Below, piece after piece: positions 4,101 through 25,558 of a DNA stretch of 64,000 nt. Made by a program: the position numbers and the translations under genes. Under the pieces are notes generated by a model. The model worked only from the letters and a program-made list of their open reading frames with translations, made no database searches and had not been told where the DNA came from. The stretch is from a virus: IMG/VR virus record IMGVR_UViG_3300046787_000302, positions 64,001 through 128,000 of that record. The stretch is one strand, 5' to 3'. Numbering within the stretch: the first letter of the stretch is position 1; each line of letters begins with the position of its first letter.

Positions 4101-4292
4101 ATGAATGAGAAAGAAGCTGAGGATTATATCAAACAACTTCTTGGTGCTAATAAAACAACTAGTACTTATGGATCATCAGGTGCATTAGATAAAACAGCAA
4201 TAGTACAAAGACAAATGCTGGCAGGACTTGCTAGTTTATTTCCAAATGCAGGTGCATCAGCGTATCCTTTTTCAGGACAAGGGTTTGAGTAA
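1164..4292 (+). CDS. Large putative virion protein (1042 aa)
   Basis: I do not recognise a catalytic domain. The protein starts with a basic segment (MKKYKVRIKAA) and contains Gly-rich GGQYGHSLDLG-type turns near residue 295. A conserved-looking stretch follows around residues 350-470 (KIGGKRHSQGGTPLNLKPG onward). Residues about 812-895 form a long Ala/Gln/Asn-rich region that looks helical and suits an elongated or ejected virion protein. A segment near 610-690 (GEESWWDAAHQADFAKRHPDF) resembles peptidoglycan-binding-like repeats only weakly. It lies between the virion hydrolase and another large structural protein, each preceded by the same intergenic motif. Structural or ejected cargo protein is the best guess from position and composition. 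Confidence 0.6.
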   Translation: MKKYKVRIKAAPQMNYGGMMPRYQTGQEVPELTEEEKAAMLYGAQPVVGPMNGAVTLAPTDANYPVNMASSAGYQGPSVYDYLTSQGKKGDYNSRKEIAKSLGIQNYKGTAEQNLAMLEALRGNQPQAKIVSSVVKPSTSKQAIPTQKALTKKAANTPQQHSLLNDLTNTLTGSRSYEEYSQKHPYFFDFMGVDDKSSSFVKGLDAIPHHFEDAIAKLVYNGDPMSALEIGALIAGNRFLGRGAKGPKALPPGPNPRLLTQPPKGGFTMPGRGGLGNFTYAFGGDLAAMAYGGQYGHSLDLGSRVIDNEMGKPDPYAVSDTLQAVPRDMANLEAERGETAYGDLDDDGEMEHSKIGGKRHSQGGTPLNLKPGTFIYSDTKSMKLRGQDLAQFGKSASSKKSYTPAQIAKQYELNKYKAILEDPNADPYQKRTAEMMMNNNKFKLAQLALAQEGKKGFPQGIPQVALPALPPELAEQLLGMQEQEGMEREPEGAEYAKKGGSTFSGNAWYQQGGIQIDPAKKGTFKAQATRMDIGIQEAAAHILANKDQYSPEMVKKANFARNFAKEEGGLIEYQKRGEVRYPVYSPNDFNVLGNLGQNNTIGMPSNARYPGTYPAMQSKNKTGVYGEESWWDAAHQADFAKRHPDFINNATNWDPRTPGAALAFQKTVNPQLVAAGLSPIPEDDKFGERTYSVPSLAPFRTLGVRQPQAMPVNMPAPSIDAYDFYRTQYENSLKDTNQETAAPAPAAAQKQVAQKQVRDPRTGMLMPDKAALLQGLFTRAGIPTLTPFVQAPDYVLPETVFADPTRQYAAVAEQANMQNQGLRTFGRPQANLAGASQIAGKQLEAISNIGAQTNMQNASIANQANAVNAATINQNMAARAQAANMLGEMNNKYNLENFSMRDAADKQILAAYQNAFSNRAKVDALNKTSPYFTIDPRTGLQVQKAGVDIANLATNGKPTGDSDPFKQYMALKQRALDSGMNEKEAEDYIKQLLGANKTTSTYGSSGALDKTAIVQRQMLAGLASLFPNAGASAYPFSGQGFE

Positions 4293-7231: not shown

Positions 7232-10200
7232 ATGGCAGAAGAATATCAACCAATAGCAGCTTCAGGTGCACCGATTCCTGAAGTTGATTTGGCAGCCTTA
7301 AATCCTACAGCAGCAATAGATCCTTTAGCTAACCTGCAACAAAGCATGGCTATTGGAGAATCTGATCGTATAGTTAGAAACTCTATCGCAGATCTTAAGC
7401 AAAGCTTGTCAACTCCGACAGCTGATGAAATGCTTCGTCCTATTGGTTACGATCCTATTGAGACTAATCGTGACAGATATGTTAACTCTGATTATTTTGG
7501 AGAGTTAGGTTTTAATCCTTTTAGTAATAACGAAGAGATCTATGGTAATGCACAAACTAACTTTAATAAGTTAAAGAATGCGTTTACCGGGATGGGTGCT
7601 TTAGCTTGGCATCAAGCAGTTGATCAGTTTAAAAGCTGGGGTAATACCTTTGATGTATTAGGTACTCAAGAGATGAGCAGTGCTTTTCAGCAAGCTGAGA
7701 TGGAAGAGTTATCTCGTCGTCAGAATGAGATGCTTAATGCTAATCCAATATTTGAGACACAAGCAGATAGAGAGAGCATCTTTAACTTTAACACTATTGC
7801 AAATACTGTACAGCAGTCTGGTTTTGCAGTTGGTGCTATTGCTGAGATTGCAGCTGAAGAAGCAGCATTAACTTATTTAACTGCTGTTACATTTGGTGGT
7901 GCTAGTGAGTTACAAGCCGCTCGTACAATAAAACTTGCTAGTAATATTGGTAAAGCTGCTCGTAGAACCGCTGAGTTATCTGAGAGTATTAACAGTGCTT
8001 CAAACATGCGTAAGGCATTTAATGCAGTGCAGAAAGCAGCACAGTTAATAAATCCTGTTGATAACGTAATGGAGTTTGCATCAGGCTTTAAAGCAATGCG
8101 TAGAGCTGATGAACTAGCTTATGGTGCTACAAAAGTATCATCATTACGTACAGCAGCTAGAGGCTTTGGATCTTTATATAGAGATGTTAGAGAGTTTAAC
8201 TTAGCTGTATCTGAAGCAAAAGCTGAAGCAGCTGGTACTTATACAGAGTTATCAGAACAAATGACTGATAACTTTGAGACTAAGTATGGTAGAAAACCTA
8301 CTGATCTTGAGTTAAAAGATATCAATGATGAAGCATTAAGAGGAGCTCAGTCAAATGGTGCTGCTAATACTGCTCTTATCTTGATGTCAAACAAGTTAGC
8401 TTTTGGTAATATCCTTAAAGGGTTTAAGCCTTTACGCTACATGATGGATGAGGATATCATGAAAGGCTTAGCTGTAGTATCAGATAAAGATGCATTAAAG
8501 CTTGGTAAGAAAGTAATTGAAGCTGGTGATAACCGTTGGTTATATTACAAGAATGCAATCGTTAGTAATCCATTAAAGTATCTTGGAGCTAACTTATCAG
8601 AAGCTTTGCAAGAGAATGCTCAGAGTATTTCAAACGATGCTGTTAAGTCATGGTACATGGCTAAGTACAACGGTCAAGAGCTAGACTCTAAGTTTGATGC
8701 TATTCGTGAAGCAGCCGGCAATCAGTTTACTACTGAAGGTGCAAAGACATTTATATCTGGATTCTTTACAGGAGGCTTACTTGGTGCAGGATCAAAAGCA
8801 TTTGAACAAGCAGGTTCTATACAACAATACTTTACAGATAAGAAAGGTTACGAAGATCGTAAAGCAAAAGAACAAGCTGCACGTACATCAGTAAAGAATA
8901 CTGTTAATCAGATTTATGCTAACCCTCTAAGTTATAACTATAACAAAGATAATGCTGCTGCCCAGGCCAACTTTGCAGCAATGTTAAAAGAGTCTGCGAT
9001 TAATAAAGACAAGAAAGCATTCAATGATATACAAGATGACGCAACTCGTCACTTTATACTTACTGGTATTAATACTGGTATGCTTGATTTGTTAAACGAT
9101 CGATTAACTGATTACGTAAAGAACTTAAACGAGAACGAGTTTACTGAAGCTTTTGGTGTTGAATACACAAAAGAGAATCATGCTGACATGGTTAAGCAAA
9201 CTCAGGTATTTGCTAAAAGAGCTGAAGAAGTAAAAGAGATTCACTCAAAGCTTTCTTCTGATTACGCTAATCCGTTTAATCCGGGTAACTTCAAGCATGG
9301 TACAAAAGAATACATAAAAGAAGCTATGAGTCATGTTGCTTATAAAGAAGCAATCAATCAGCTTACTTTTATGCAGGATACTTATAACCGTGCAATTACT
9401 CGTCAGCAAGAAGTATTAGACGGCATAAAGACTAAACCTGGTTTTGAAAACGTTGGGTTTAATGATATCTACAGTTTAACATCGATAAGTCACTTAGCTA
9501 ACGAGATAGATCTTTTAAGAAAAGAAGTAGAAGCTACTGAAGACAAAAAGATCAAAGCTGAGAAAGAGAAGAAGATAAAGCAGTTAGATAAGTATAATGA
9601 CGACTTGATCTCTTACTTAGATAAAGTAGATGAGATTAATGCAAACAAAGAGCTTGATCCAAAGAAGAAGTCTGAAGAGTTAACAGCTGCTTTAGATGCT
9701 TTCACAAAAGAAGCATTACCAACATTTACTTCTCAGATTAACGATCAGTTAAAAAAGGCAGGTAAACAACCAGTACAAGATAATAGTGCTCGTGCTGCTT
9801 TTGAAAACTTAACTGATTACTTCCATCTACAAGGAGATCATGAAGCTCTTTTACAGAACATCAACTACATTGTTGACCCAATAAACTTTTCTGAGTATTT
9901 AAACCGTCACAATGAAGAGATGGTGAAGTACTTCGAAAACAAGATGAAGGTTGATAAGAAGAACGAGAAGGAGAGAGCAAGAGATAAAAGAACTGCTGAA
10001 GATGCTTTATCTGGGGCAGTAGTTCCGGAAGATGGAGAAGGAATAGATGAGTCAGATCTTACTGAAGAAGATGATTTTGAGACAGAAGTACCAAACGGTG
10101 GTAGTATCAATGTTGAAGAACTTGTTAAAGAGTTAAAAGACGCTTATGCTGCTGTTGTTAAGTCACAACTAGAAATAGTTAGTGATTTTGAAGGTAGTAG

Positions 10201-13200
10201 TATAATGCTACCATCTGCTTTTCTTGGCTTTTCAAATAAGGCAACTCAGATACTTGTTAACTATGGAGTATCTAATAAAGACTTTACGTTTAATATTGCA
10301 AGACCAGATAGATCAAACTATCAGAATGTTGAGTTTACATACACTGGAGCTAAGTCATCAAACTCTGCAAATACAGAAGTAGAGGATTTAGATCTTGATG
10401 TTGAAACAGTTGATGAAACAACTGAAGCAACTGATACACCTGAAGCAGTTCAAACAACTGAACCGGTTGATACTACAACAGAAACTCCAGTAGTTACTGA
10501 GCCTGTAACAGAAGACGAAAACGTTGATCCAGAGCAAGAAGAGTTTGATAATAATCCGGAGAATAGTACAGAAGTTAATGGTACTAAGTTTATACTTGGT
10601 CACTATATAGTTCTTACTGATGGATCAGATACTGCTTTAAAGATTATATCTGTTACTCCGGATAAAGTATGGGCTATTCATGGAACGGAGAGTGAACTTG
10701 AGTTTAGTACTGATGAGTTATCTGATATGCTTACAAAAGGTCAGATTCAGATTGTGGCTAATCCAACTGCAAAGAAAGTGACTACTCCTGTTGAAGAAGT
10801 TACTGAGACACAGAAGAAAGATCTAAAAGATAAAAAAGCAGTACAGGAAGAAGATGCTGACTTTGACGACTTAGAGTATACGGCAGATAACGTTGGTTTT
10901 TCTTATGCAAGAAAAGATTCAGATGGGTCAACAGTATACGAAGACTCAAGAACACCAATAAGTTCTGGTTCTAAGATTAATAACTCTTCAGATAACTTTA
11001 CTGTATACACAGATAAGAAAGGTGTTCGTCGTCTTAAGAGAGGTGATTCAAAAGAATCATATCCATTAATAATGGGTACTTCTCGTATTAAGTTTGGTAC
11101 ACCACTAACTTTTGAGATAGATGTAAACATTGATGATTTTGATGACTACGACTATGTTCAACAGACTGGTATTACAAAACGTAAGAAAGCTGACTTCTTT
11201 AATGCAGACGGCTCAATAAAGCCTGAAGCTATTGATGATTTTCCAGTTGCTATCTATACTGTTGAAAACGGTAAAAAGATAAAGCTTGGGTACTTACCAA
11301 CAGTTAAGTTTGTTACTGCTCGATACAATGACTCAGGAGTCCTTGCTCATACAAAAGAGTTTACAACTACTGAAGACGGTGATAGTGTAAACAATCTTGA
11401 GGTACAGACTAATGCTATAAAAGAACATAGAAAGTCTTTATTTAACGGATACAATACGAATCCTAACGCTGTATTTACATCTTCTGTAACCTTTAAGTCT
11501 AACGGCGTATTAAGAACGGACGGTGTAAAGAAACCTTTGATACAAGCATTAAGTAAGAATACACGTATTGCTATTATCAAACAAGGTCGTGTTCATGTTA
11601 CTGATAAGCATTTTGAAACGGATCTTTACATACCTGAGATTATTACTCAAGGTAAGTCGAGCGGATGGCCTGTTGCTATTATTCCAACTCCATCAGGAAA
11701 GAGTCTTGCGTCATTAGTTACTGTTCCTCAGTTAAAACCAGAACGACTTGATTTTATTCTTGGAGCCTGGACTGCATTCCATACTTATAATACTACAACT
11801 GCTAAGTCACAGCAAGCAACAAAGAAAGATCTTGATATTATAAAAGCTGTATACAAAGCATACGATATTGAGTTTATCGATGGGGAGACTGCTGACTTTA
11901 AAACGTTAAGTAACTACATCAATGACTACGTTACTCATACAAGTTCAGTACAGTATAATCCAATGCTTCAAGGTAAGGGTCACTTTAACATCACACCAAA
12001 AGGATTGCTTAGTGTTTGGAAAGTAAACACAGGTGATAAGAAGAAGGATAGTGTTGTTATAGGTAACTTAACTGAGATAAGTGAAGAGAAAATCAATAAG
12101 TTTTACGATATTGCAGCAAACTTAAGACAAAGTATTCGCTTTGGTACTGAGCAATCTGCAGGTGTTGGTAACGATAAGATGATGACTGTGTTATCTGTTG
12201 ATCCTGATACTGGTGTTTTGACTGAATCAAAGCCTATGACTTATAATGATTATATGTTACAGACTCTTGAAACAACATTAGAAGAGGGACGTCCTTACGA
12301 TGAGAATAATACTGAAGCAGATGAGTTAATACACTTTGCTAATCCAGTTGTTGTATTTGGTAAGATTGATAGTCAGGCTCCATCTACTGGTGCTAAACCA
12401 ACAGAAGCACCAAAAGCTCCTGCTCCGGTTACTCCAGTTGCTCCGGTATCTCCTGCTAATGGAGTTGCTGCAATACAGTTTACTGATTCATCAGTACAGA
12501 TTAAACCTATTGTTATTGAAGGTAGTGCTTACAATGTAGTTAATACTTCAATGCGACCAAAAGCATTAGTTGATATTAATGGTACTATTGTTCCTTTCTA
12601 TATTACAAGTGGTCTTGGTGGAAAAGGTTTAGAACCTGGTTGGTATCCTTTCTTTGGTATTGGTAAAGATGGTTGGATGAATAAGACAGATAAGTCTGAT
12701 ATGGAAACATATTATGAAAGATACTGGGGAGCAGAAGCTGCAAGTAAGATTAAAGGTATTGCAGAAGAGCTTAATGCTTTTTATGGTACTGATTCTAAAT
12801 CTTTTGAAGATGATAAGCATCCAACAATAACAGAGAAACCTTTAAGTGCTTTAGCTGATGCTGTTGAAGATCATATTAACGAACAACTTTCTGTAACACC
12901 TGCACTTAATAATGGAGATGCAAGAAAAGTTTTACGTAGTAATGTGGAGCAGTTAGGTAAAGAGATTACTACAAAACAGGCTGATAAAGTCGCTGATTCT
13001 GCGTATATTAATGTAACGGATCAGTCTAAATCAGAGACTGGATTAACTCAAGAAGAAGCTTTAGCTAAGTTTATGGATATGGACTTTGGACAACAGTTTG
13101 GAACTAACCAGACAGTTGACAAAGATGTCGTAAAAGGTAATGAAGATGAGTTAAAGTCAGTAGCAACCACTACACAGAAACTACAGGAAGAGAATAAACT

Positions 13201-13219
13201 TAACAAGAAGTGTAACTAA
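7232..13219 (+). CDS. Giant virion protein 1 (1995 aa)
   Basis: One of three adjacent giant proteins typical of crAss-like phages, where such proteins are carried in the virion and include the virion RNA polymerase. I see no polymerase motif in this one. Hydrophobic patches occur near residues 197-225 and 507-525, and Lys/Glu-rich coiled-coil-like stretches near 760-810. A very acidic segment lies at about 925-955, a Thr/Glu/Pro-rich linker at about 1050-1110 and a Pro/Ala linker at about 1715-1746. The linkers suggest at least four separately folded units, fitting a protein threaded through the tail. It ends NKKCN and the next giant gene starts after one base, so the two are surely co-translated. 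It could be an accessory RNA polymerase subunit or an ejection protein. Confidence 0.6.
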   Translation: MAEEYQPIAASGAPIPEVDLAALNPTAAIDPLANLQQSMAIGESDRIVRNSIADLKQSLSTPTADEMLRPIGYDPIETNRDRYVNSDYFGELGFNPFSNNEEIYGNAQTNFNKLKNAFTGMGALAWHQAVDQFKSWGNTFDVLGTQEMSSAFQQAEMEELSRRQNEMLNANPIFETQADRESIFNFNTIANTVQQSGFAVGAIAEIAAEEAALTYLTAVTFGGASELQAARTIKLASNIGKAARRTAELSESINSASNMRKAFNAVQKAAQLINPVDNVMEFASGFKAMRRADELAYGATKVSSLRTAARGFGSLYRDVREFNLAVSEAKAEAAGTYTELSEQMTDNFETKYGRKPTDLELKDINDEALRGAQSNGAANTALILMSNKLAFGNILKGFKPLRYMMDEDIMKGLAVVSDKDALKLGKKVIEAGDNRWLYYKNAIVSNPLKYLGANLSEALQENAQSISNDAVKSWYMAKYNGQELDSKFDAIREAAGNQFTTEGAKTFISGFFTGGLLGAGSKAFEQAGSIQQYFTDKKGYEDRKAKEQAARTSVKNTVNQIYANPLSYNYNKDNAAAQANFAAMLKESAINKDKKAFNDIQDDATRHFILTGINTGMLDLLNDRLTDYVKNLNENEFTEAFGVEYTKENHADMVKQTQVFAKRAEEVKEIHSKLSSDYANPFNPGNFKHGTKEYIKEAMSHVAYKEAINQLTFMQDTYNRAITRQQEVLDGIKTKPGFENVGFNDIYSLTSISHLANEIDLLRKEVEATEDKKIKAEKEKKIKQLDKYNDDLISYLDKVDEINANKELDPKKKSEELTAALDAFTKEALPTFTSQINDQLKKAGKQPVQDNSARAAFENLTDYFHLQGDHEALLQNINYIVDPINFSEYLNRHNEEMVKYFENKMKVDKKNEKERARDKRTAEDALSGAVVPEDGEGIDESDLTEEDDFETEVPNGGSINVEELVKELKDAYAAVVKSQLEIVSDFEGSSIMLPSAFLGFSNKATQILVNYGVSNKDFTFNIARPDRSNYQNVEFTYTGAKSSNSANTEVEDLDLDVETVDETTEATDTPEAVQTTEPVDTTTETPVVTEPVTEDENVDPEQEEFDNNPENSTEVNGTKFILGHYIVLTDGSDTALKIISVTPDKVWAIHGTESELEFSTDELSDMLTKGQIQIVANPTAKKVTTPVEEVTETQKKDLKDKKAVQEEDADFDDLEYTADNVGFSYARKDSDGSTVYEDSRTPISSGSKINNSSDNFTVYTDKKGVRRLKRGDSKESYPLIMGTSRIKFGTPLTFEIDVNIDDFDDYDYVQQTGITKRKKADFFNADGSIKPEAIDDFPVAIYTVENGKKIKLGYLPTVKFVTARYNDSGVLAHTKEFTTTEDGDSVNNLEVQTNAIKEHRKSLFNGYNTNPNAVFTSSVTFKSNGVLRTDGVKKPLIQALSKNTRIAIIKQGRVHVTDKHFETDLYIPEIITQGKSSGWPVAIIPTPSGKSLASLVTVPQLKPERLDFILGAWTAFHTYNTTTAKSQQATKKDLDIIKAVYKAYDIEFIDGETADFKTLSNYINDYVTHTSSVQYNPMLQGKGHFNITPKGLLSVWKVNTGDKKKDSVVIGNLTEISEEKINKFYDIAANLRQSIRFGTEQSAGVGNDKMMTVLSVDPDTGVLTESKPMTYNDYMLQTLETTLEEGRPYDENNTEADELIHFANPVVVFGKIDSQAPSTGAKPTEAPKAPAPVTPVAPVSPANGVAAIQFTDSSVQIKPIVIEGSAYNVVNTSMRPKALVDINGTIVPFYITSGLGGKGLEPGWYPFFGIGKDGWMNKTDKSDMETYYERYWGAEAASKIKGIAEELNAFYGTDSKSFEDDKHPTITEKPLSALADAVEDHINEQLSVTPALNNGDARKVLRSNVEQLGKEITTKQADKVADSAYINVTDQSKSETGLTQEEALAKFMDMDFGQQFGTNQTVDKDVVKGNEDELKSVATTTQKLQEENKLNKKCN

Positions 13220-13220
13220 T

Positions 13221-16200
13221 ATGGCATGTTTATATAACATCAATGGTTCTGAGTTTTCAGAAACAGAAGTTAAGCAACTTTTAAAGAGTGCTGCAACTTT
13301 ACCTGGTAACGAAGGCTTGTCAGATGATCAGCTTTTAGATCTAGTAAAAAGTGCAGTTGAAGATCGTTTTGTTAATATTAACTTATTCAATCTTGTTCAA
13401 GAGCAGTCTATTACTAACGCTATCTTTTCTCAGTTTGTTGATGAGATTGGTTTATTAAAACCAGGTGGTAAGTATGAGAAGTCATCTCGTATATTGTTTG
13501 CTGAGATCAAAAGTAAACTAAAGAACTCTGCCTTAAAGATTAAGTACTTTACTGATAATATAGCAAAAGACGAAGAGTCTTATAACAAGTTAAAAGAGTC
13601 AGCAAACGAAGCAATGCTTGCAAAGATTCCTGAACTTGGTATTCTTGATTATAAAGAGTTCTCTTATCTTGGAGAACTACTAGATAACGTTACTGATGAT
13701 ATTAACTTTGATCGATTCACAGAACAAGTAGCAATAAAGCTTAATCGTTTAGGACTACGTATTAATACAGATAGTCAAGTAGAAGATTTTGGTTTAACTG
13801 CTGATTACTATGAGAGTTTACTTGTTGATTCAGGTGAGTTGTTTGGTGATGATGATGTTGATGTTGAAGATAACTCAGTAAATGAAAGCTTTACTGATGC
13901 ACGTTCGTTTCAGATGAATCCGAAAGATACTGCTACAACTCGTGTAAAGCTTTTATTTTCAAGTATTAAGAGTGACAAAGCTAATCTATTAGGTCTAGCT
14001 GATTTCGTTGCTTACGATCAAGTATTTGAAGACTTGTTAGTATTAGGTGCTGGCTTACAACATGTGACTTACGATGCTTTACAAGAAGCTCTTATTGAAA
14101 AAGCTCAGGTTAAACCTTACTTATTAAACGTACACAAAAAGCTTGGTCAATTACAAGCTGAGAATAATGTACAGTTGATTAATGAAGTTCTTACAGTAAT
14201 TAATAAAGCGTACACTGATCATACCATGTTACTTTGGAAACAAAGTGAAGAGGGTGGTATCAGCATGCGTGTTATTAGTTCTAACCGTAATAGCGTTATT
14301 CGTCAGATTAAAACTGACTGGTTAGAGTTACAGAAAATGTCTGTTCTTATTACAAAGAACAAGTTTGGTAACTTAGTAATTAACACTGATCTAGCTAATA
14401 AGTTAAAAGAAGAATACTTAGAAGTACGTCAAGGTAATAGTATCACAAAGAAGAAAGAGTTTTTAAAAAAGCTTTTTGCTTCGATGAATATTCCTGTTGA
14501 TGATGCTTATATTACACACATTAATGATGCGATAAAGAAAAAGAGGTTTAGAACTTTCAAGACTAGCACTCTTTCTGATATGTTTTCAACAGGTAACATT
14601 GTTGATAATATCATTACTACATTAACTAAGGATGTCGACACTCAGTCTGAAGCAGCAAACTACGAAGATAAGAACAACCCAATTGTTCACGAGCGAGTAT
14701 TTAACATATTTGCAGATCTTTACTACGATCTTCACTCAGATGTTTATCAGACTGGTAGTTATACAAACGGAGAGAATAAAAACATCTTTGCTTATGTTCA
14801 ACCTTCTTACTTAGAAACAGTAAAAAAGAAGTTAAAGACAAAAGAGTTCTTAGATGTTCTTGCTAATCGTGCTTATAGTAAAAGCTCTGAAGCAGTTCGT
14901 CGTTTAAGAGAAGATGAAACAAACAGTGATGATAGTTTCGTATTTAGCTTAAGTTACTCTGATAGTATTAAAGCAGATGAAAAAGGTGAGATAGGTAAAG
15001 TAAAAAAGAATCAGTCACAACGTGAGTTGATACTTGATAGTTACCTTAAGCATCAAAATAACTTTGGTAAGACTGGTTACTACAATACATTTACTTTATC
15101 TGATAAGACAGTAGCACCTGTATTACAGATAACAAAAGATAGTTTAGATCCAGCAAGTAGCTTTGCGTTCTTTAGAACTAAGCCTACTGTTCGTGAGTCA
15201 TTTGAGTTCAAGGATTCTTTTAAGAATAAGTTATACGACTTAGCACAAGCTGAGATTGATCGTATGATTGCTTATGCAACTTACAAGAAGAAAGATAAGT
15301 TACGCATAGCTAACTTTGAAACAGCAAGTAAGATATTCTTTTTATTCCCGGTATTAAACAATCGTGCTGACGGTAAGCTTAATGCTATTCGTACTAAGAT
15401 CTACCAAGGTGTTGAACCTTCATCTGAAGATGCAGATTACTTAAAGACACTTATTGGTGAGTCAATAAAGGAGGATGTGCTAAAGGAGTTAGCTAACCTT
15501 ACTCGTAAGAATATTATAGTTAAAGGATCTACATCAGTTGATGACAATGGAAAAGTAAGTACAAACTACTCTTTCCCTTTCTTTAACAAGATCTACATGA
15601 ATCAGTTGTCTCAACTAGACTCATCACATCAAGCAATCTTTGCAATCGCAGATCTTAAGTATAACTTCTTGAGAGCTCAGATTAATACTACCCAAGTGTT
15701 AGGAGCTGACTTAGCTTTATTCTATAAGGAATCAAAGGTTGTTACTGCAGAGAAGATTAAAGATGCTTTTGGTGAGTCACTATCTGTTAATCAGTTATTG
15801 TCGTATAACGTATCAGCTGAGAACACACCAGAAGAATCAGCAAAGCGTAAGATTATAAACGATGTTATTAATAGTACTGTTTTAAGTACTACTGATGAGT
15901 TCTCAAAACGTGCTGCAATGTTTATTGCCCCAGGTTCTCAAGGAACTACAAAGTGGCAAGGAACAGATGGTAAGATTGTTGATATCTCTTTATACAACAT
16001 GCTTACACTAAAAGATGTTGTTAAGTCAAACGAGTTCTTTTCAAAGATTGAGATTACGGATGCTCAAGAGTTTGTTACTGTTGAAGAGCATATCAATCGT
16101 ATGATGTCTGAAGGTAGACTTCCATTAGATATATACGAGTCTATAAAAGCAAAGATTGCAAAAGCTGCAAAGAATAAGTCTTACGATTATACATTAACAG

Positions 16201-19200
16201 ATATTGAGCTTGGTTTTGTATTACAACCAACAAAGCCTGTACATTCGTCTAACTCTGAGATAGATGGGTTTAACGAGATCAACTATGTTAAGTCTTCTGC
16301 TTATCCTCTTATCCCAGATAACACACGTGGTTCAGAAATGAACAAGCTTCGTATGTTTATGGAGAAGAACAAAGTAGGTTCTGCTGCTTTTAAATCAGCA
16401 ACAAAGACGGGTTCTCCTGTACAGTTACTTGAAGTATTTGATACAGACGGTAACTTTATTGAACCTACAAAAGCTGAACTAGCAGGAAACATACAAGAGT
16501 TATCACGCGAAGGATTACGTACACAGCAAGAGATTCCTCATCAGAAAGAATTAATCAACGTTGTTAGTCAGATGGACCGTCAGTTATTTGAAGGTTCTCT
16601 TGACGTTACTGACTTTGAGTTAGCTGGTCAAAAGTTTAATACTGCTCAGTTCAAGTCACTAAAAGAAAGAATACGTACAGAGTTATTTGAACGTAACGCT
16701 TCTGAGTTACTTGAGAGGATTGGTATAACTATCAACGAAGACTTTGTTACTTTTAAGAGCGAACGTAGCTTAGCTCGATTGTTAAAAGAAGAAGCTATTG
16801 ATCGTAACATGAGTATAAACGATATCAAAGCTATTGCCACAAACAAAAACGGTAAGCTTGTTATCCCGGTGTACTTATTAAGTAACAGTGCTAAGTTTGA
16901 AGGATTACTTACTTCTTTGTTTAGTAAAGTTGTTAAACTAAAAGTTACCGGAACATCTCTTGTTCAAGTATCTGCAGTTGGTACAAAGCTTTCTGAGTCT
17001 GAGCTATCAGATAAGATAAAGAACGAGATTGTATATACTGAGTACTATGATCCGGAAAAAGGGTTACAGTACATTAGAAGAACAAAAGCTGCAAAAAACA
17101 GAAAAGCAAAAACAGAGGCTGCTCAAGTATTTGTATCTCAGTATTTAAAAGACGAAGACGGTAATCTGATTAACTTGAAAGACTACGCTGAAGCAGATGC
17201 ATCAGGTCGTTTAGTTCTTGATCAAGATAGAATACCATCAAAGTTATTAGAACTTATTGGTGCACGTATTCCTAATCAGTTGCACTCATCAATGTTACCT
17301 ATTGTTGTTGCAGGTTTCTTACCATCATATATGGAGAACACTATTATTGTTCCAGATGGTATTACAGCTCAGATGGGTTCTGACTTTGACGTTGATAAGT
17401 TATATGCTTACTTATCTAATCCTACATATAACTACAAGTATACTGCTACTGTTGAGATTGATGCTTTAAAAGAGCAGAAGAAAACTATTCTTGATGAGTA
17501 CAAAGACTCTATTCAGAAGCTTGACGACGAACTAAAAGGCTTATTAAACGATGAGCAACAGTCTGAGATCAAAAAGCTTAACGATAGCATCGATAAGTAT
17601 AGAGCTCGTTTAGGTTATAAGAATCTTGCTGAGAAAGAGCGTGAACAAAAACAACGTATCCTTGATAGCTTATATGAAAAAAGATCTGCTATCTATGATG
17701 AAGTAGCAAGTGGCTCTGAGCGTAAGAAACTTAATCAAGCAAAGTATAAGTTAAAGCAAGAAAGAGCTGCAAAGCTATCTGAGATTAACGATAAGATAAA
17801 AGAGATACGCAAGAATAACATCGAGTCTCTTGATGTTGTTAACTATGCGTTGAACGAAGACATGAGTGTTAGAAATCTAAACACTTTTGATCTTTCTCAA
17901 CTATCTGAAAGTGAGTTACTTGAGATGTATAAAGATATTCACTGGTCTGTGCTTAATCATGCAAAGACCTTTGATAAGATTACAACATCTATTGACTTGT
18001 CTGACTATGAAGATGAGAAGAAGTATTTCTATGAGAACGGTATTGTTGAGTTACCAACTAACTTCTTACCTTTTGACTATAATACACAGATCAATACTTT
18101 CTTGGATAACAGAAGTGGTAAGTTAGGTACTGGTATATTTGCTCAGTTGCTTTCTTTCCTCGCAGAACACCAGGACAAAAAGAATGTTGCTTTTGGTAGT
18201 ACAGGTATTACGATTATAAAAGATAACGGTGAAGAGATTCTTTTAAACAGATTAACAGCAGAAGGTAGTACTACGTTTAAGAGTGATGCAACACTTAATA
18301 CTTTAACAAGAACAAAGACGCAAAACGTATCAGCTTCTCTTAATGAGTCTCTTGATAATGCAAAGAACAAGAACCTTAACGTGTTTAATATTAACTCGTT
18401 ATCAATGGCTCCTGCAAAGCTTCTATTGTCTTTAAGTTCAGATCAGGGAGAGATTGCTGATATTCGTTATGTTACTCGTTTCTTTCCTCAGTATATTCTG
18501 AAGTATCTAAATGAGCAGGAAGAGATTGCAAAAGATTCTTTCTCAACTCGCAAAATGTACTCATCTGATGTTATAAAAGAAGTTAAGTTTAAGTTTATTA
18601 ACTTACTTACTCCTCAAGCACAAGACTTAGCTACCCCTGAGAATATTGAAAAAGTGATGCTTCACTCACCAGATGAGTTATTAAACTTACTAAAGCAAGA
18701 AGCTCGCTTAAGACCTCGTCTTAATCAGTTGATGTTAGCTTATGATCCAGCTGTTGTTAAGATGCAGCCAGTTGAGAGAAAAGAACTTGATGAGTATATC
18801 ATGAAGCAGCTTGGCATTTTAACTTACTACGAGAGACTACAATCCTATAGTGTTCCTCAATCTACGTTGATGAATAATAGCAATGTAATCAGTCAAGGTA
18901 TTGGTTCTGATCTATTTAGCTTCTTAAATAAATATCGTAAGTTCCAATCCATATCAAGAGCTGCAGACTCAGTTAACGGAGAAGGTTTACCTGTCGTAAT
19001 ACAGAATCCATATGGTGAAGCAGAGGTTGTTGATAACTTGATTAACATTGGTGATATCTTTGGTACATTTGAAGTTGATGATATGACCGGCACTGTTGAC
19101 TTCAAACCAACAACTCAAACAGGGCATGCTGTTAATAATAGTTTAGTTCTTGCTCATAAAGTATTAAGTAAGATTGCACCAATACACTTTGATCCTGTAT

Positions 19201-21737
19201 TCCAGAATCTTTTAGAAGAGATTGTATTACAGAAAAACAAAGGTAAAGGTGGTGTTGATAACTATGGTAAGATTAAGTTTGCTGCGATGGCTCAAAACAT
19301 CATGGAAAACTTAAAAGCTTATATTGATAGTACACAAGACTCTGGTTTTATTACTGATGATTTAGTTAGTGAAAGAAACAGATTGCTTATTGGTACTGAT
19401 AAGAATCCTTCTTTGGCTGAGCGTATTGTTCAAGCTTCAATCAAGCATCCTGAGTTAAGAAACAACTACTTCTTTGCAAGGTTAAAACCTGTTATTCCTA
19501 CTTCTAAATCAAGAATGAGTATTAAAGGTGTTCAGTACAAATCGCCTTTTAGTCAAGACATTGATGAGCTATCTAATAATAAAGGCTTCTTAGATCTTAT
19601 CTTGAACGAGAATGAAGATATATCAAGCATCGGTAAAGACTTGATTAAGTATGCTTATGTTACAGGTGCTAGTGCTGATAAGTCTTCTTTCTTTAGATAC
19701 ATACCTATTGAGTTAAGACTACTTAATAAGAAGCACTTAGAACACGTTAGTAAGTTCCAGGAAACGTTTAAGATGAACGTTGATAACTTCTATGATCAGT
19801 TTATCATGAACAATCCTGATATGGCTTCTTATGTTGATAGAAAAGCTTTTACTGCTTTAAACAATCCATCAACGATTACTAGAGGTTCTAATGATGAGTT
19901 TATCTACTCCTTGCCAAAAGGTAGAGAAGATCTAATGATTGCTGGTAGTATTGATGATTTAGTTAGTGGTAATAAGTCAACTGTAAAGACTTATCCTAAG
20001 TTTATACGTCATATTAGTAACAATCAGTTGTTTTTGTTTAAACGTATTGGAGAAAGATCTTATAAGAGAATATCAACGTTAGGTACAGAACTAGCATCTG
20101 AATATGAGTTAGGTGTTAATGCAGATCAGATGACATCTGTTCACTTTGCTAACTTACTCCCATCTCAAAAGCTTAACCGTATTGTTACTAATGAAGAGAA
20201 TCCTTTTATTATTTTTTCTGGTAATGTAAGTTTAGTTACAGATGAAGCTGATTTAGCAAACTATGCAACAACTGCAGTTAGTTACCCAACAGATCCTAAT
20301 AACCCTCAAGCAAAACATAGAATACTATCAACAGTATACAAGACTAACATAAACAACGAAGAGTTTACAGACAAAGACGTTGTGTTATTTAATGGTGATA
20401 GATTCATTGATGTTTTACCAGGCGATGCTAAACTAAATCATATCACTCGCCGTGATGCAATAGATACTTTATCTACGGTATTTGAAGAGATGTACAAGCC
20501 TAAGTTAGAAAGTGTAATAAAAGCAAAAGCTTCTGTTGTACTTTATACAAAAGCTGAGGGTATCTCAACAATGATACAATCTTATCTTGAAGGTAAAGGT
20601 TATAAAGCATCTGAGATTGGTCAGTTCAATAATGTATTGATGACTTATGGTGAGCCAGGTACAGTACCTTCATCAGAAGAGTTTACTCCTTTCTCTGAAC
20701 CAGATGATCTATTTACACCAGATGGTTTTATTGCAGGTATTGATGAAGATGTTGATGTAGTACCAATGAGTATGTTTGGTCTTGCTAGTGGTCCTGACCC
20801 TGAAGTTTTCTTGAGTGGTGAAGTTTCTTCTGCTACTGAAGGGTCTGCAGTAGAGTCTGATCAACAAGTCTTTGAGAAATACATCCCAGATACTAATGGA
20901 GTTAATACTCTTGCTTCTGTCTTGACTAAGTTAAAAGCAAATACAAACAACGACTTCTACAAGATTCTTATCGATAGCTTAAAAGCAACTGGTGATGTAT
21001 CAAAGATATCTGTTGTTCTTTCAACAAGTATTACTGATCCTGCACTTTATAATACAATCACTAATCAGATTGTTATTAACCCAGACTTAGCTTTAACAGA
21101 TAACAGTACTAAGTCAAGAGCTGAAAATCTTGAAGACTTGATTGTTCATGAGTTACTGCATGGTTATACAGCTCAGTCATTGTTTAAACTATCATCAAAA
21201 GGTGCTAAGTTTAATGTTGAAGGTGAGCGTATGTACGCTACTTCAGTAAAGAAACTATTCTTACTTGCGCAAGAGTCTGTATTAAAGAACGAAGTTCATA
21301 GTGCAAAGTTAAAATCTGTTATTGCAAAGATTAATGACAGTGTATTTAACACTGAAGCAGACAATCGATTAACAGAAGAAGAAAAGAGCATGTACTATGG
21401 CCTTACATCTGAGCATGAGTTTGTTAGTATGTTAATGACAGATAAGGGATTCCAAGAGTTTATGAATACCATTATGGTTGATTCTTCTGGTAAGTCAGTA
21501 GTATCTAAGTTTGGTGAGATCTTGAAACGTTTACTTACTGCTTTAACAAAAGCTCTTGGTATCCAAGTAAAAACAGACTCAGTTTTAGATCAAGGTATTA
21601 AAAATATAACTAACTTGCTTAGTGTTATCGATAATGCATCTGATACACAAACAAAAGATAACGGTCAGATGCCACTGTTTAGCATTGCAACATCAGATCA
21701 GATTAATGAATACGCTTTAAACAATCAATGTAAATAA
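13221..21737 (+). CDS. Giant virion RNA polymerase subunit with C-terminal zinc-protease motif (2838 aa)
   Basis: The segment QMGSDFDVDKLYAY contains DxDxD at Asp1388, Asp1390 and Asp1392, the metal-binding signature of the second double-psi beta-barrel of two-barrel RNA polymerases. In the crAss-like Cellulophaga phage phi14:2 the virion RNA polymerase gp66 carries this motif at a similar depth in a giant polypeptide. Upstream GARIPNQLHSSM (about 1347-1358) lies where barrel residues are expected. A Lys/Glu-rich coiled coil of about 120 residues follows the catalytic motif (about 1410-1535). Near the C-terminus is HELLH at 2643-2647, with a possible third zinc ligand in SEHEF downstream: a zincin-type metallopeptidase signature. 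Likely role: ejected with DNA to transcribe the first phage genes. The protease could act on virion precursors or host proteins. The polymerase call is strong; the protease activity is inferred. Confidence 0.82.
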   Translation: MACLYNINGSEFSETEVKQLLKSAATLPGNEGLSDDQLLDLVKSAVEDRFVNINLFNLVQEQSITNAIFSQFVDEIGLLKPGGKYEKSSRILFAEIKSKLKNSALKIKYFTDNIAKDEESYNKLKESANEAMLAKIPELGILDYKEFSYLGELLDNVTDDINFDRFTEQVAIKLNRLGLRINTDSQVEDFGLTADYYESLLVDSGELFGDDDVDVEDNSVNESFTDARSFQMNPKDTATTRVKLLFSSIKSDKANLLGLADFVAYDQVFEDLLVLGAGLQHVTYDALQEALIEKAQVKPYLLNVHKKLGQLQAENNVQLINEVLTVINKAYTDHTMLLWKQSEEGGISMRVISSNRNSVIRQIKTDWLELQKMSVLITKNKFGNLVINTDLANKLKEEYLEVRQGNSITKKKEFLKKLFASMNIPVDDAYITHINDAIKKKRFRTFKTSTLSDMFSTGNIVDNIITTLTKDVDTQSEAANYEDKNNPIVHERVFNIFADLYYDLHSDVYQTGSYTNGENKNIFAYVQPSYLETVKKKLKTKEFLDVLANRAYSKSSEAVRRLREDETNSDDSFVFSLSYSDSIKADEKGEIGKVKKNQSQRELILDSYLKHQNNFGKTGYYNTFTLSDKTVAPVLQITKDSLDPASSFAFFRTKPTVRESFEFKDSFKNKLYDLAQAEIDRMIAYATYKKKDKLRIANFETASKIFFLFPVLNNRADGKLNAIRTKIYQGVEPSSEDADYLKTLIGESIKEDVLKELANLTRKNIIVKGSTSVDDNGKVSTNYSFPFFNKIYMNQLSQLDSSHQAIFAIADLKYNFLRAQINTTQVLGADLALFYKESKVVTAEKIKDAFGESLSVNQLLSYNVSAENTPEESAKRKIINDVINSTVLSTTDEFSKRAAMFIAPGSQGTTKWQGTDGKIVDISLYNMLTLKDVVKSNEFFSKIEITDAQEFVTVEEHINRMMSEGRLPLDIYESIKAKIAKAAKNKSYDYTLTDIELGFVLQPTKPVHSSNSEIDGFNEINYVKSSAYPLIPDNTRGSEMNKLRMFMEKNKVGSAAFKSATKTGSPVQLLEVFDTDGNFIEPTKAELAGNIQELSREGLRTQQEIPHQKELINVVSQMDRQLFEGSLDVTDFELAGQKFNTAQFKSLKERIRTELFERNASELLERIGITINEDFVTFKSERSLARLLKEEAIDRNMSINDIKAIATNKNGKLVIPVYLLSNSAKFEGLLTSLFSKVVKLKVTGTSLVQVSAVGTKLSESELSDKIKNEIVYTEYYDPEKGLQYIRRTKAAKNRKAKTEAAQVFVSQYLKDEDGNLINLKDYAEADASGRLVLDQDRIPSKLLELIGARIPNQLHSSMLPIVVAGFLPSYMENTIIVPDGITAQMGSDFDVDKLYAYLSNPTYNYKYTATVEIDALKEQKKTILDEYKDSIQKLDDELKGLLNDEQQSEIKKLNDSIDKYRARLGYKNLAEKEREQKQRILDSLYEKRSAIYDEVASGSERKKLNQAKYKLKQERAAKLSEINDKIKEIRKNNIESLDVVNYALNEDMSVRNLNTFDLSQLSESELLEMYKDIHWSVLNHAKTFDKITTSIDLSDYEDEKKYFYENGIVELPTNFLPFDYNTQINTFLDNRSGKLGTGIFAQLLSFLAEHQDKKNVAFGSTGITIIKDNGEEILLNRLTAEGSTTFKSDATLNTLTRTKTQNVSASLNESLDNAKNKNLNVFNINSLSMAPAKLLLSLSSDQGEIADIRYVTRFFPQYILKYLNEQEEIAKDSFSTRKMYSSDVIKEVKFKFINLLTPQAQDLATPENIEKVMLHSPDELLNLLKQEARLRPRLNQLMLAYDPAVVKMQPVERKELDEYIMKQLGILTYYERLQSYSVPQSTLMNNSNVISQGIGSDLFSFLNKYRKFQSISRAADSVNGEGLPVVIQNPYGEAEVVDNLINIGDIFGTFEVDDMTGTVDFKPTTQTGHAVNNSLVLAHKVLSKIAPIHFDPVFQNLLEEIVLQKNKGKGGVDNYGKIKFAAMAQNIMENLKAYIDSTQDSGFITDDLVSERNRLLIGTDKNPSLAERIVQASIKHPELRNNYFFARLKPVIPTSKSRMSIKGVQYKSPFSQDIDELSNNKGFLDLILNENEDISSIGKDLIKYAYVTGASADKSSFFRYIPIELRLLNKKHLEHVSKFQETFKMNVDNFYDQFIMNNPDMASYVDRKAFTALNNPSTITRGSNDEFIYSLPKGREDLMIAGSIDDLVSGNKSTVKTYPKFIRHISNNQLFLFKRIGERSYKRISTLGTELASEYELGVNADQMTSVHFANLLPSQKLNRIVTNEENPFIIFSGNVSLVTDEADLANYATTAVSYPTDPNNPQAKHRILSTVYKTNINNEEFTDKDVVLFNGDRFIDVLPGDAKLNHITRRDAIDTLSTVFEEMYKPKLESVIKAKASVVLYTKAEGISTMIQSYLEGKGYKASEIGQFNNVLMTYGEPGTVPSSEEFTPFSEPDDLFTPDGFIAGIDEDVDVVPMSMFGLASGPDPEVFLSGEVSSATEGSAVESDQQVFEKYIPDTNGVNTLASVLTKLKANTNNDFYKILIDSLKATGDVSKISVVLSTSITDPALYNTITNQIVINPDLALTDNSTKSRAENLEDLIVHELLHGYTAQSLFKLSSKGAKFNVEGERMYATSVKKLFLLAQESVLKNEVHSAKLKSVIAKINDSVFNTEADNRLTEEEKSMYYGLTSEHEFVSMLMTDKGFQEFMNTIMVDSSGKSVVSKFGEILKRLLTALTKALGIQVKTDSVLDQGIKNITNLLSVIDNASDTQTKDNGQMPLFSIATSDQINEYALNNQCK

Positions 21738-21739
21738 GT

Positions 21740-24700
21740 ATGGCTTGTCTTATCAAAAGAAAAAACGGTTTAATCTCTGAAGTATATCTTCCAGGTGGAA
21801 AAACTCCGTCAACTTCTTACTATGATATCTTAAATACAATAGAGACAAAAGGTGTACCGGCTGAACATGCTGGTAACCTTAATGCGTCTTTACAAAAGCT
21901 AAGAGGTAAGTATATTAAGAACACAACTCAATCAAGTGAAGTAGCTTTGGGTATATACTTAACAATGTATACACCAAAGTTTCAATCTTGGTATGGTCAG
22001 TGGGCTGTTGAGCCAACTATTAACTCTGATTTTACAGTTACAAAAGACGGTGTTAAGCGTTCATTGTTTGACTTCATGGAGTTTACTCACTCATTAGACG
22101 CTAAGCTATACTCAAGAAGAACAAAGTCTTTAAAAGGATTGCTTCCAACAGTAAAGCTGATGCGTGATGAGTTAAAAGATCGTATCAAACAACATATTGA
22201 CGCTAGAGAAAGAGCAAAGCTTAATAAAGATTACACGAGAGAACAGAAGATTGAGCGTGAGAAGTATTACAATGCTTTGATCAAACGTCTTAATGAGCAG
22301 ATTGATACTATACAGAAAGAGAACAGTATCAAGATAGTTGTATCTCAAGGTCTTGCCGATATCGAAACTATTCGCGAGATGCTTTCTGGGTCAGTTGTTT
22401 CTCTTAGTGAGCTATTACTTGCTGATGATATTATAAAGACATGGACAAACTTAGAGCGTTTGTTTAACATCCCTAATATCATGGAAGTACCTGCTGATAA
22501 AGACGGTACGTTTACTACTAGAGATACATTGATTGAGATTAACAATGCAGCTAGATCTTTTGATAACAAGATTGCTTACTTTGCAAAGCAAGAGTTGATA
22601 AACAAGATTAACAAAAACGCAAAGGAAGGACAAGAGATTACGATTCGAGATATTGAATCAATGAAAGATGTTAGTAAGATCCAGTTATATACTCGTGATA
22701 TTACTACTGTTGATAACAAGCTTGTTGGATATCTTGCCAAGTTGATTACTCAAGTTAATATGCGTATTGAGAAAGAGCATAACCGTAACTATAGAAAGAT
22801 TGACGAAGAGACTGATAAGATAAAAGAACATCCTTTGTTTAAGCAGCTTGGCTTTGATTTATTCATAAAAGAGCAAACAACAAAAGATGGCTTTGGTCAA
22901 GAGACTAAAACACTTGGTTTTAAAGGTAGATTTTCTCAGGACTGGTATGAAGCTGTAAAGAAAAGATATCGCTTACTAAAAGAGAATCTAGATACAGCAA
23001 AGGACAACAAAGAAGTTGTTACTGCTATCTGGGCTGATCACAACAGATGGGTAAAAGAAAATACTATTGCTTTTAACTCATCTCCTTTTATCAATACAAA
23101 GGCTCATACTGACGAAGAACGATTAGCTATTATTAATAGCTTAAAGGTTCAAGGTTTTACTGCTGAGGAAATAAACGACTTTGTTAAACAATCAAGAGCT
23201 CGTTATAGTCAGTATCTTAAAGATGCAGAGACTTTTGGTATCAGTCTTCAAGATGATATCATAAAAGAAATAGTAGTGCTTCAACCTGAAGATGGTACTG
23301 AAGAAGAGTATATCCAAAAGCAAGTTGAAGAGTGGAAGAAGATTAACGACCCTATTGCTTATAACGATCTAATAAACGGAGCTTTAAAGTTCTCAGAAGC
23401 TGGTATTACAAAAGGTAGTAAGTACTCTATTAAGATTCCTCGTAAGATGATTGATGGTAGTGAGACAAGCTACTATGATCAAGACTTTGCAAAGATTGCT
23501 GCAGATAAAGATCTATACAACTTCTATGTATTCTTCCGTGACTTTATGAAGGAACAGCTTTCATATTTACCTGAAGACGAGATTGATTCTTTACAGTCTA
23601 ATTTCTTACCAGTAGTAACGGAGCGTTTAAGTAAAGAGTATGGCCTTACTAGTTTAAAAGAAGGTATAAAGGGTATGGATGATTGGTTCTTTAAGAACTT
23701 AACAACTATTGATTATCAAACTGCAGGTAAAGCAGACCCTATCAGTGGTATAACAAGACATGGTTTTACTCCTCGTTTTATAAATGAGAACGTCCCAGTA
23801 GAGCAGCGTAGTAAAGACCTTAATACTATTGCTAAGCTGTTTAGCGATATGGCTCTTATCTATAAGCATAAGATTGCTGTTCAAGATACAGTTGATAGTA
23901 TAAACAATATTGTTCAATCAGCAACAGCTTCAACAGAATCAGTAAGATTAAAAGGAGATAAGGTAGTAAGTAAAGCTCCAAAGAACTTACAAGAGATGGT
24001 TGATAGCACAGTACTAAGAGCTTTCTATCGAGTTAATCCTGAAGCTCAGGGTGTTATGGATAGACCTTTCTACAACTCATTAGAATTATTAACACTTGGT
24101 ACATATAAGTCAGAGAAATATAAGCAAGCAAAAGCTCTTGAAGAAGAGATAGCAAAGCTTAATCAAGAGTTAGAGACAAACAATAAGCTAACTACAGCTG
24201 ATCGTAAGCTAATCGAAAAGAACATTCAGTTAAAAGTAGATGCTTACTATGAACTAGGTGGTAGAAACCTTAGTGTTAGTAGTGTTGTTGATGCAATGAA
24301 TAAGTTTACAAGAGAAAAAGGTATTGCCTTTAACCCATTCTCAGCTATCCGTAACTTAGCTGTTGGTGGTGTCAATAACTGGATTCATGCAAAAGGTAAA
24401 GAGGACTTTGATAGTGCACAGATGGCAAAAGCAACTGCAATGCTAAAAGGATCTATCACTAAGTATATGTCATGGGGAACAGTTGAGTCAAAGATGTCTG
24501 AGAAGATTCTAAGAATGATGCTTGACACAAAGACTATTGAAGGAGAAGATAATACTTTTGCTAGTACTATAAAAGGACTTAATGGTCAAAGCACTATTGA
24601 TGCTATAAAGAACGCTATCCCAAGTCCTTTTGCTTTGATGAAGTCAACAGACTACTTCTTTAGATCACAGACAGCTTTATCAATGTTGTTAAACACAAAA

Positions 24701-25558
24701 GTGACAACAACAAAAGGTGAGTTTAACCTATTTGAGATTCTTGATAATAACTTAGAAGTTAATACAGAAGAGTTTGGTGAGTGGAATGCTGAAGCAAACG
24801 AAGGTCAAAGTTTTGATGAGTTTTATGAATCAAGCATGATGAAGATTAACCAGGTATCAAAGAAACTACACGGTTTCTCTGGAGATGTTCAGTCATTAGC
24901 TGGTAAGGATAACATTATTGGTCGTGTGCTTTTTGTGTTTAGATCATGGTTGCCGGAAACGTTAGCTACTCGTTTTGAGAGTAAACGATATGATCCTATA
25001 TTAGAGAGAGATAGTGAAGGTTACTATAGAACATTTTTTGGTAACTTCATTAATGATAATGGATTGCGCATAAAAGATTCTATAGCAGAGATCATTGCTG
25101 CTTTAAAAACAGGAGAAGTAGAAGGACTTACTCCATTACAGGTAGCAAACATTAGAAAGATGATGGCTGAGTTAGCCGCTATCCTTGTGTTGACTGCTTC
25201 AGTAATGGCTTTATCAGCTTTACTTGGTAGTGATGACGATGATGAGGATAAGAAGTATGTTAACATACTCTTAAACCAGCTGATCTTGTTAAATCGTGAC
25301 TTAACATATTACATTAATCCATCTTCTGCAGGTGAGTTACTTCAGAACTTTGTTCCTATAACAGCTACACTTAATCAGACTACACAAGCAATTGTTGCGT
25401 CATCGTATTATTTAGCTCAAGTAGAAAAGACAGATGAAGAAGGAGTTCTTCAGTATGACGGTGAAAGAACATTACTAAAGATTAGTAAAGCTTTACCTTA
25501 TGTAAACAACGTTAACAGAGTAATATACTACTCAGGTCAAATGGGTAGCGTTAGATAA
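21740..25558 (+). CDS. Giant virion protein 3 with C-terminal membrane segment (1272 aa)
   Basis: It starts two bases after the polymerase gene and shares the MACL start with it. A charged coiled coil covers about residues 130-200. A segment near 865-900 (NPFSAIRNLAVGGVNNWI) resembles domains found in large phage polyvalent proteins, though only by eye. One clear hydrophobic helix lies at about 1141-1163 and is followed at once by an acidic DDDDEDKK patch, which would fix its orientation in a membrane. No enzyme motif is seen. Position and length suit a cargo protein ejected with the polymerase, possibly inserting in the inner membrane to form the DNA channel. The gene ends the rightward block and is followed by a bidirectional terminator. 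Confidence 0.6.
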   Translation: MACLIKRKNGLISEVYLPGGKTPSTSYYDILNTIETKGVPAEHAGNLNASLQKLRGKYIKNTTQSSEVALGIYLTMYTPKFQSWYGQWAVEPTINSDFTVTKDGVKRSLFDFMEFTHSLDAKLYSRRTKSLKGLLPTVKLMRDELKDRIKQHIDARERAKLNKDYTREQKIEREKYYNALIKRLNEQIDTIQKENSIKIVVSQGLADIETIREMLSGSVVSLSELLLADDIIKTWTNLERLFNIPNIMEVPADKDGTFTTRDTLIEINNAARSFDNKIAYFAKQELINKINKNAKEGQEITIRDIESMKDVSKIQLYTRDITTVDNKLVGYLAKLITQVNMRIEKEHNRNYRKIDEETDKIKEHPLFKQLGFDLFIKEQTTKDGFGQETKTLGFKGRFSQDWYEAVKKRYRLLKENLDTAKDNKEVVTAIWADHNRWVKENTIAFNSSPFINTKAHTDEERLAIINSLKVQGFTAEEINDFVKQSRARYSQYLKDAETFGISLQDDIIKEIVVLQPEDGTEEEYIQKQVEEWKKINDPIAYNDLINGALKFSEAGITKGSKYSIKIPRKMIDGSETSYYDQDFAKIAADKDLYNFYVFFRDFMKEQLSYLPEDEIDSLQSNFLPVVTERLSKEYGLTSLKEGIKGMDDWFFKNLTTIDYQTAGKADPISGITRHGFTPRFINENVPVEQRSKDLNTIAKLFSDMALIYKHKIAVQDTVDSINNIVQSATASTESVRLKGDKVVSKAPKNLQEMVDSTVLRAFYRVNPEAQGVMDRPFYNSLELLTLGTYKSEKYKQAKALEEEIAKLNQELETNNKLTTADRKLIEKNIQLKVDAYYELGGRNLSVSSVVDAMNKFTREKGIAFNPFSAIRNLAVGGVNNWIHAKGKEDFDSAQMAKATAMLKGSITKYMSWGTVESKMSEKILRMMLDTKTIEGEDNTFASTIKGLNGQSTIDAIKNAIPSPFALMKSTDYFFRSQTALSMLLNTKVTTTKGEFNLFEILDNNLEVNTEEFGEWNAEANEGQSFDEFYESSMMKINQVSKKLHGFSGDVQSLAGKDNIIGRVLFVFRSWLPETLATRFESKRYDPILERDSEGYYRTFFGNFINDNGLRIKDSIAEIIAALKTGEVEGLTPLQVANIRKMMAELAAILVLTASVMALSALLGSDDDDEDKKYVNILLNQLILLNRDLTYYINPSSAGELLQNFVPITATLNQTTQAIVASSYYLAQVEKTDEEGVLQYDGERTLLKISKALPYVNNVNRVIYYSGQMGSVR

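Follow-up and report, generated by a model that had tools for sequence, protein, structure and literature searches.

Three giant proteins encoded side by side by a crAss-like phage, a virion RNA polymerase and its two neighbours, contain only four cysteines, all at ends that face another of the three. This three-protein cargo is probably coupled tail to head through its terminal cysteines, most likely by disulfides; the pattern is seen directly in the genes, and the bond is what we deduce from it. Somewhat less firmly, we favour the wider reading that giant polymerase cargo is joined through single terminal Cys residues, which would act as a reducible covalent substitute for gene fusion, so that the proteins travel as one thread and are parted in the cytoplasm. 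Among human gut viruses, crAss-like phages are reportedly the most abundant, and the problem addressed is how polymerase proteins of ~700 kDa are passed down a narrow tail in correct order and proportion. The cysteine rule is found at nearly every cut in the cargo and is gone in fused forms; this makes the cargo question directly testable with existing isolates, possibly also with existing mass-spectrometry data, and the rule would offer a simple way to tell from sequence which ejected proteins travel as a group. The zincin-like domain in ejected proteins was known before; in the open-access literature we found no description of the terminal-cysteine pattern in cargo proteins and no report of a bond between cargo proteins.

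The cargo block and its virion RNA polymerase

We analysed a window of 64,000 nt, comprising bases 64001-128000 of the 130-kb virus record IMGVR_UViG_3300046787_000302. The TerL of this record matches the TerL of PhicrAss001 (E 2e-19) and its major capsid protein matches the PhicrAss001 MCP (E 7e-7); because both are related to PhicrAss001, the virus is regarded as a crAss-like phage (Crassvirales). The cargo block consists, in this order, of the first protein (1995 aa, 7232..13219), the polymerase (2838 aa, 13221..21737) and the last protein (1272 aa, 21740..25558), all on the + strand. The polymerase ORF is open throughout and is flanked by the two other giant ORFs; by blastp, a homologue of the last protein forms one chain with the polymerase in 24 related loci. 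Upstream of the block lies a 952-aa protein with zero Cys (4348..7206, +), and the boundary between it and the first protein is without terminal Cys, as the outer end of the chain.

An earlier note on this DNA had described a single 2838-aa chain with three motifs, and DFDVD, HELLH and SEHEF are indeed found in one ORF at residues 1388-1392, 2643-2647 and 2730-2734, respectively. Its comparison of the DFDVD chain with the polymerase of phage phi14:2 is also borne out. The phi14:2 gp66 structure (6vr4) is the sole PDB sequence match of the whole 2838-aa protein (E 5e-20), and a profile built from 48 members over residues 933-1778 matches it with E 1e-112. The three Asp of the catalytic DFDVD (17382..17396, +) are invariant in the 48-member alignment. 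The AlphaFold2 model of the polymerase region (pLDDT 83) finds 6vr4 by Foldseek (E 5e-27), with 839 aligned columns and a TMq of 0.64; the presence of both double-psi barrels in this one chain is putative. A Pfam search with the whole 2838-aa protein gave no significant match. Homology and a predicted structure mark the ORF as that of a gp66-related, crAss-like virion RNA polymerase, of which it encodes the catalytic chain; packaging of the polymerase in the virion and its transcription of early genes are putative for this metagenomic virus.

Concerning the region just after the Asp triad, the coiled coil which had been singled out as unusual is seen as predicted helices with coiled-coil potential at residues ~1407-1532 (17439..17816, +; AlphaFold2 model, pLDDT mostly 70-92). 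It does not stand out as a distinct anomaly: the stretch which holds these helices is longer in the window polymerase than in gp66, and on the model we take it to be a helical insert of variable length that follows the catalytic loop.

Cysteines at the junctions of the cargo block

The first protein ends in KKCN, with its single Cys at residue 1994 (codon 13211..13213, +). The polymerase begins with MAC and ends in NNQCK, and has two Cys only: Cys3, towards the upstream protein (13227..13229, +), and Cys2837, towards the downstream protein (21729..21731, +). The last protein begins with MAC and has a single Cys at residue 3 (21746..21748, +). The non-virion ORFs of the window contain 9.7 Cys per 1000 aa, a rate at which four or fewer Cys in 6105 aa have a probability of 8e-21; given four Cys, the probability that all lie within the 48 junction-end positions is 3e-9.

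Comparable arrangements are seen in known phages. phi14:2 has the same catalytic region and three-protein block, and its gp67, gp66 and gp65 contain 1, 2 and 1 Cys in the same kinds of place as the window proteins; the window polymerase is ~650 aa longer, and the zincin-like domain of phi14:2 is carried by gp65, past the junction. In PhicrAss001, Cys are found at residue 2339 of gp47 (of 2341), residue 5 of gp49, and residues 5, 1334 and 2404 of gp50 (of 2412). These are the same ends as in the window, but gp50 has one extra internal Cys and the gp47 gene is on the plus strand, opposite to gp50 and gp49 on the minus strand. Flavobacterium phage Fpv1 resembles the window in that the polymerase chain gp33 has a tail Cys and a C-terminal zincin-like domain (HEVIH at 4179); however, its first protein and polymerase form one 4401-aa chain with a single Cys. 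The N4 virion RNA polymerase gp50 is likewise giant and ejected, and carries a zincin-like domain (HELVH at 2228), but it has a single-subunit polymerase fold, a single gene, zero Cys and no cysteine junctions. N4 gp50 (3500 aa), gp51 and gp52 (L094:14523-27523) all have zero Cys, which suggests that ejected proteins avoid Cys in general.

The cysteine rule was found in a first set of ~90 crAss-like loci, comprising 80 loci from an IMG/VR scan with a polymerase profile, plus annotated phages. At the boundaries which adjoin the polymerase ORF, Cys is present on both sides in 94 cases, on neither side in 10, in the tail only in 2 and in the head only in 0; in a few loci the result is affected by start-codon calls or by errors of assembly. 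Of the ten 'neither' boundaries, nine adjoin a shorter protein that is not part of the chain, and the tenth is with an overlapping gene that is probably frameshifted. One tail-only case, PhicrAss002 (L008), reflects an early annotated start, as its close relative cr107_1 starts with MSCT. Based on the orientation of each end, Cys is found at 194/198 junction-facing ends and at 1/136 outer ends; for unrelated ORFs the figures are 35/276 (13%) in the tail and 16/276 (6%) in the head.

The Cys also follows the gene layout. The polymerase head Cys is present in 44/44 split and 0/38 fused forms, two of the 44 (L030 and L065) being scored as split on a visible separate upstream protein, against the length rule; the tail Cys is present in 60/63 split and 0/24 fused forms. 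Polymerase length proved no guide to whether the downstream junction is fused or split. One-ORF forms of ~5000 aa have zero Cys in 9/10 genomes. On the polymerase tree, which has modest branch support, there are ~13 state changes for the head Cys and ~12 for the tail Cys; on well-supported branches the changes between fusion and split amount to only 3 and 5 independent pairs, branch support being weak for many of the changes.

Some loci depart from the pattern. In L045 and L072, both split, the polymerase is Cys-free within 14 residues of its C-terminus; in L045 three Cys fall in the final 150 residues, and a gap of 2.3 kb precedes the gene of the last protein. In L047 the gene looks disrupted, and its 170-aa remainder holds the Cys. 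Overlapping giant ORFs without terminal Cys are found in L041 (boundary near 9491-9528), L134 and L253; they look like frameshifted parts of a fused chain, the shift being either programmed or an assembly error.

A second set of 90 loci was gathered with two other query profiles, after removal of loci that overlap the first set, and scored by a fixed rule (Cys within 14 residues for the tail and 10 for the head, ATG starts only). Here both sides have Cys at 87 boundaries, neither at 6, the tail only at 1 and the head only at 0. As the loci within each set are mutually related, the counts in both sets do not represent independent events. Internal Cys are more frequent in the second set, at 1.5 per 1000 aa, and some lineages, mostly gut ones, have several; the scarcity of other Cys is therefore strongest in the branch of the window, while the rule for the ends holds generally. 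Scoring the upstream junction by length led to 14 mismatches in this set, but length is an unreliable proxy here because the polymerases are larger.

The Cys codon often lies only a few codons from stop and start, as at both junctions of the window, which could reflect a boundary motif in the DNA or one for translation coupling. Such a motif has almost no chance of being the cause, and we rejected it: the Cys position varies (head residues 3-9, tail 1-12 from the end), both TGT (167) and TGC (33) are used as terminal Cys codons, a gene may intervene between the partners, and the PhicrAss001 partners lie on opposite strands. In the L077-L092 group of relatives the cut falls within the polymerase core, ~268 aa ahead of the DFDVD loop; a small gene (158 aa in L078, L078:9228-9704) separates the two parts, and the Cys ends are kept.

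Proposed coupling of consecutive proteins

The Cys rule tracks each cut, vanishes on fusion and ignores gene order, which argues that consecutive proteins pair. The cargo acts as one long chain, being a single ~5000-aa ORF in some relatives and two or three genes, cut at varied places, in others. At each cut the upstream piece has a Cys at its end and the downstream piece one at its start, the pieces being otherwise nearly Cys-free; in the mechanism we propose, disulfides formed in or after virion assembly would join the pieces tail to head. Coupled proteins would be packaged in a fixed order and ratio, the coupled chain could thread the tail as one string, and the pieces would come apart in the reducing host cytoplasm. 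Fused forms exist, so joining, not release, seems to be the essential feature.

Pairing of each protein with itself, through homodimers formed by the terminal Cys or a polymerase closing on itself, is a reading that sequence alone could not tell apart by the partner of any one Cys. We consider it very unlikely, as it leaves unexplained both the limitation of Cys to ends which face another segment (194/198 vs 1/136) and the loss of the Cys of both sides on fusion.

Concerning the chemistry of the proposed pairing between neighbours, two types of head are recognised, CPN-EWK (CPN..S.EWK) and C-Y-NG-S-EE (C.Y..NG..S.EE), and each is used at both junctions, as expected of a portable coupler. These homologous, docking-like head modules and the same positional rule would also suit a shared metal (e.g. 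zinc) or non-covalent docking site between neighbours in place of a disulfide. Such a site is unlikely, though less so than self-pairing: no conserved metal-binding residue other than the Cys itself was found beside the head or tail Cys, and in the cleanest genomes there is one Cys per side only. The hosts and the gut are anaerobic, and we counted this against the disulfide reading, with regard to the timing of oxidation.

Disulfides are nevertheless the simplest chemistry for the join, because there is no other conserved metal ligand nearby and disulfides occur elsewhere in the PhicrAss001 particle. Passages of the PhicrAss001 structure paper describe disulfides in the capsid and tail; gp47, gp50 and gp49 were among the virion proteins detected by mass spectrometry (PMC10172136, which also describes an unreduced sample). 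When the text of the structure paper was searched specifically for disulfides between cargo proteins, none came up. The linked peptides computed for PhicrAss001, assuming tryptic cleavage as listed, are CNS + CITTNSTIEELAAK (M 1812.823, 2+ 907.419) and ICGANTLYEL + CAIIPQVR (M 1992.017, 2+ 997.016).

The zincin-like HELLH domain

The polymerase of the window also contains a zincin-like ejection-protein domain at residues ~2560-2800 (20898..21620, +), as seen in alignment, model and profile search. Its HELLH motif (21147..21161, +) has an invariant HE..H in the alignment of 43 relatives, the comparison by which the earlier note proposed to check it. A chance origin was rejected, since only 0.02 HExxH are expected by composition in a 2838-aa chain. 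An E/D-F motif ~90 residues past the HE..H is widely conserved in relatives; in the window it is SEHEF (21408..21422, +), in which E2733 (E or D in relatives) is a candidate third zinc ligand.

The zincin fold proposed for this region is supported by profile searches and less clearly by structure. The best PDB profile matches of the domain are ejection or internal virion proteins not annotated as polymerases, 9sfn_G (E 1e-13) and gp48 (8vb2, E 2e-6), followed by the N4 virion polymerase (11fw, E 3e-5) and selecase (E 6e-4). A profile comparison with the HELVH domain of N4 gave a match with a probability of 94% (E 1e-7). The domain model has a pLDDT of 85.7. In the PDB, MATCAP and selecase-type metallopeptidases are among its best structural matches, at a weak E of 0.1-1; among viral structures it mostly matches large structural or internal proteins of phages, phi14:2 gp65 included. 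As judged by these profiles, the HELLH domain is a conserved zincin-like module of a known family of ejected phage proteins, which includes the N4 virion polymerase. The HExxH of the N4 virion polymerase was already remarked on in its structure paper, and deposited crAss-like records already bear the name 'putative RNAP associated protein fused to zincin protease'; a search of open-access papers for a metalloprotease or zincin in crAss-like polymerases turned up nothing useful. That the pairing of polymerase and protease is unusual is not supported, as the domain family also occurs in the N4 polymerase and in proteins ejected by other phages.

The function first suggested was that the fused protease cleaves its own chain and so sets the polymerase free from the virion cargo. 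This would agree with the conserved HE..H and downstream EF motif, and with the place of the domain in the window, between polymerase and junction. In phi14:2, cr125_1 and cr1_1, however, the zincin-type domain sits on the protein after the polymerase; it is retained whether the cargo block is one, two or three proteins, fused or not, it is also found in ejected proteins without a polymerase, and there is no evident cleavage site. Since the family is shared with N4 and other ejected proteins, and the domain is on the next protein in some phages, self-processing of the polymerase is not supported, and we give it only a slight chance. The domain probably has a local role in ejection, and may cleave an envelope or host target as a peptidase.

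Other HExxH motifs were also seen. In gut crAss-like phages the first protein has an HExxH near its C-terminus (HEGVH in L008:5667-11729, HEQIH in L009:4237-11175 and HEAFH in L010:16563-23588), which is possibly a second zincin family, sited at the opposite junction. The fused first-plus-polymerase chain of cr125_1 (L007:1184-14692) has a second HExxH, HEAFH. The last giant gene of cr125_1 (L007:14695-19596) contains 38 in-frame TAG and the other giant gene contains 78 in-frame stops, read as a recoded stop.
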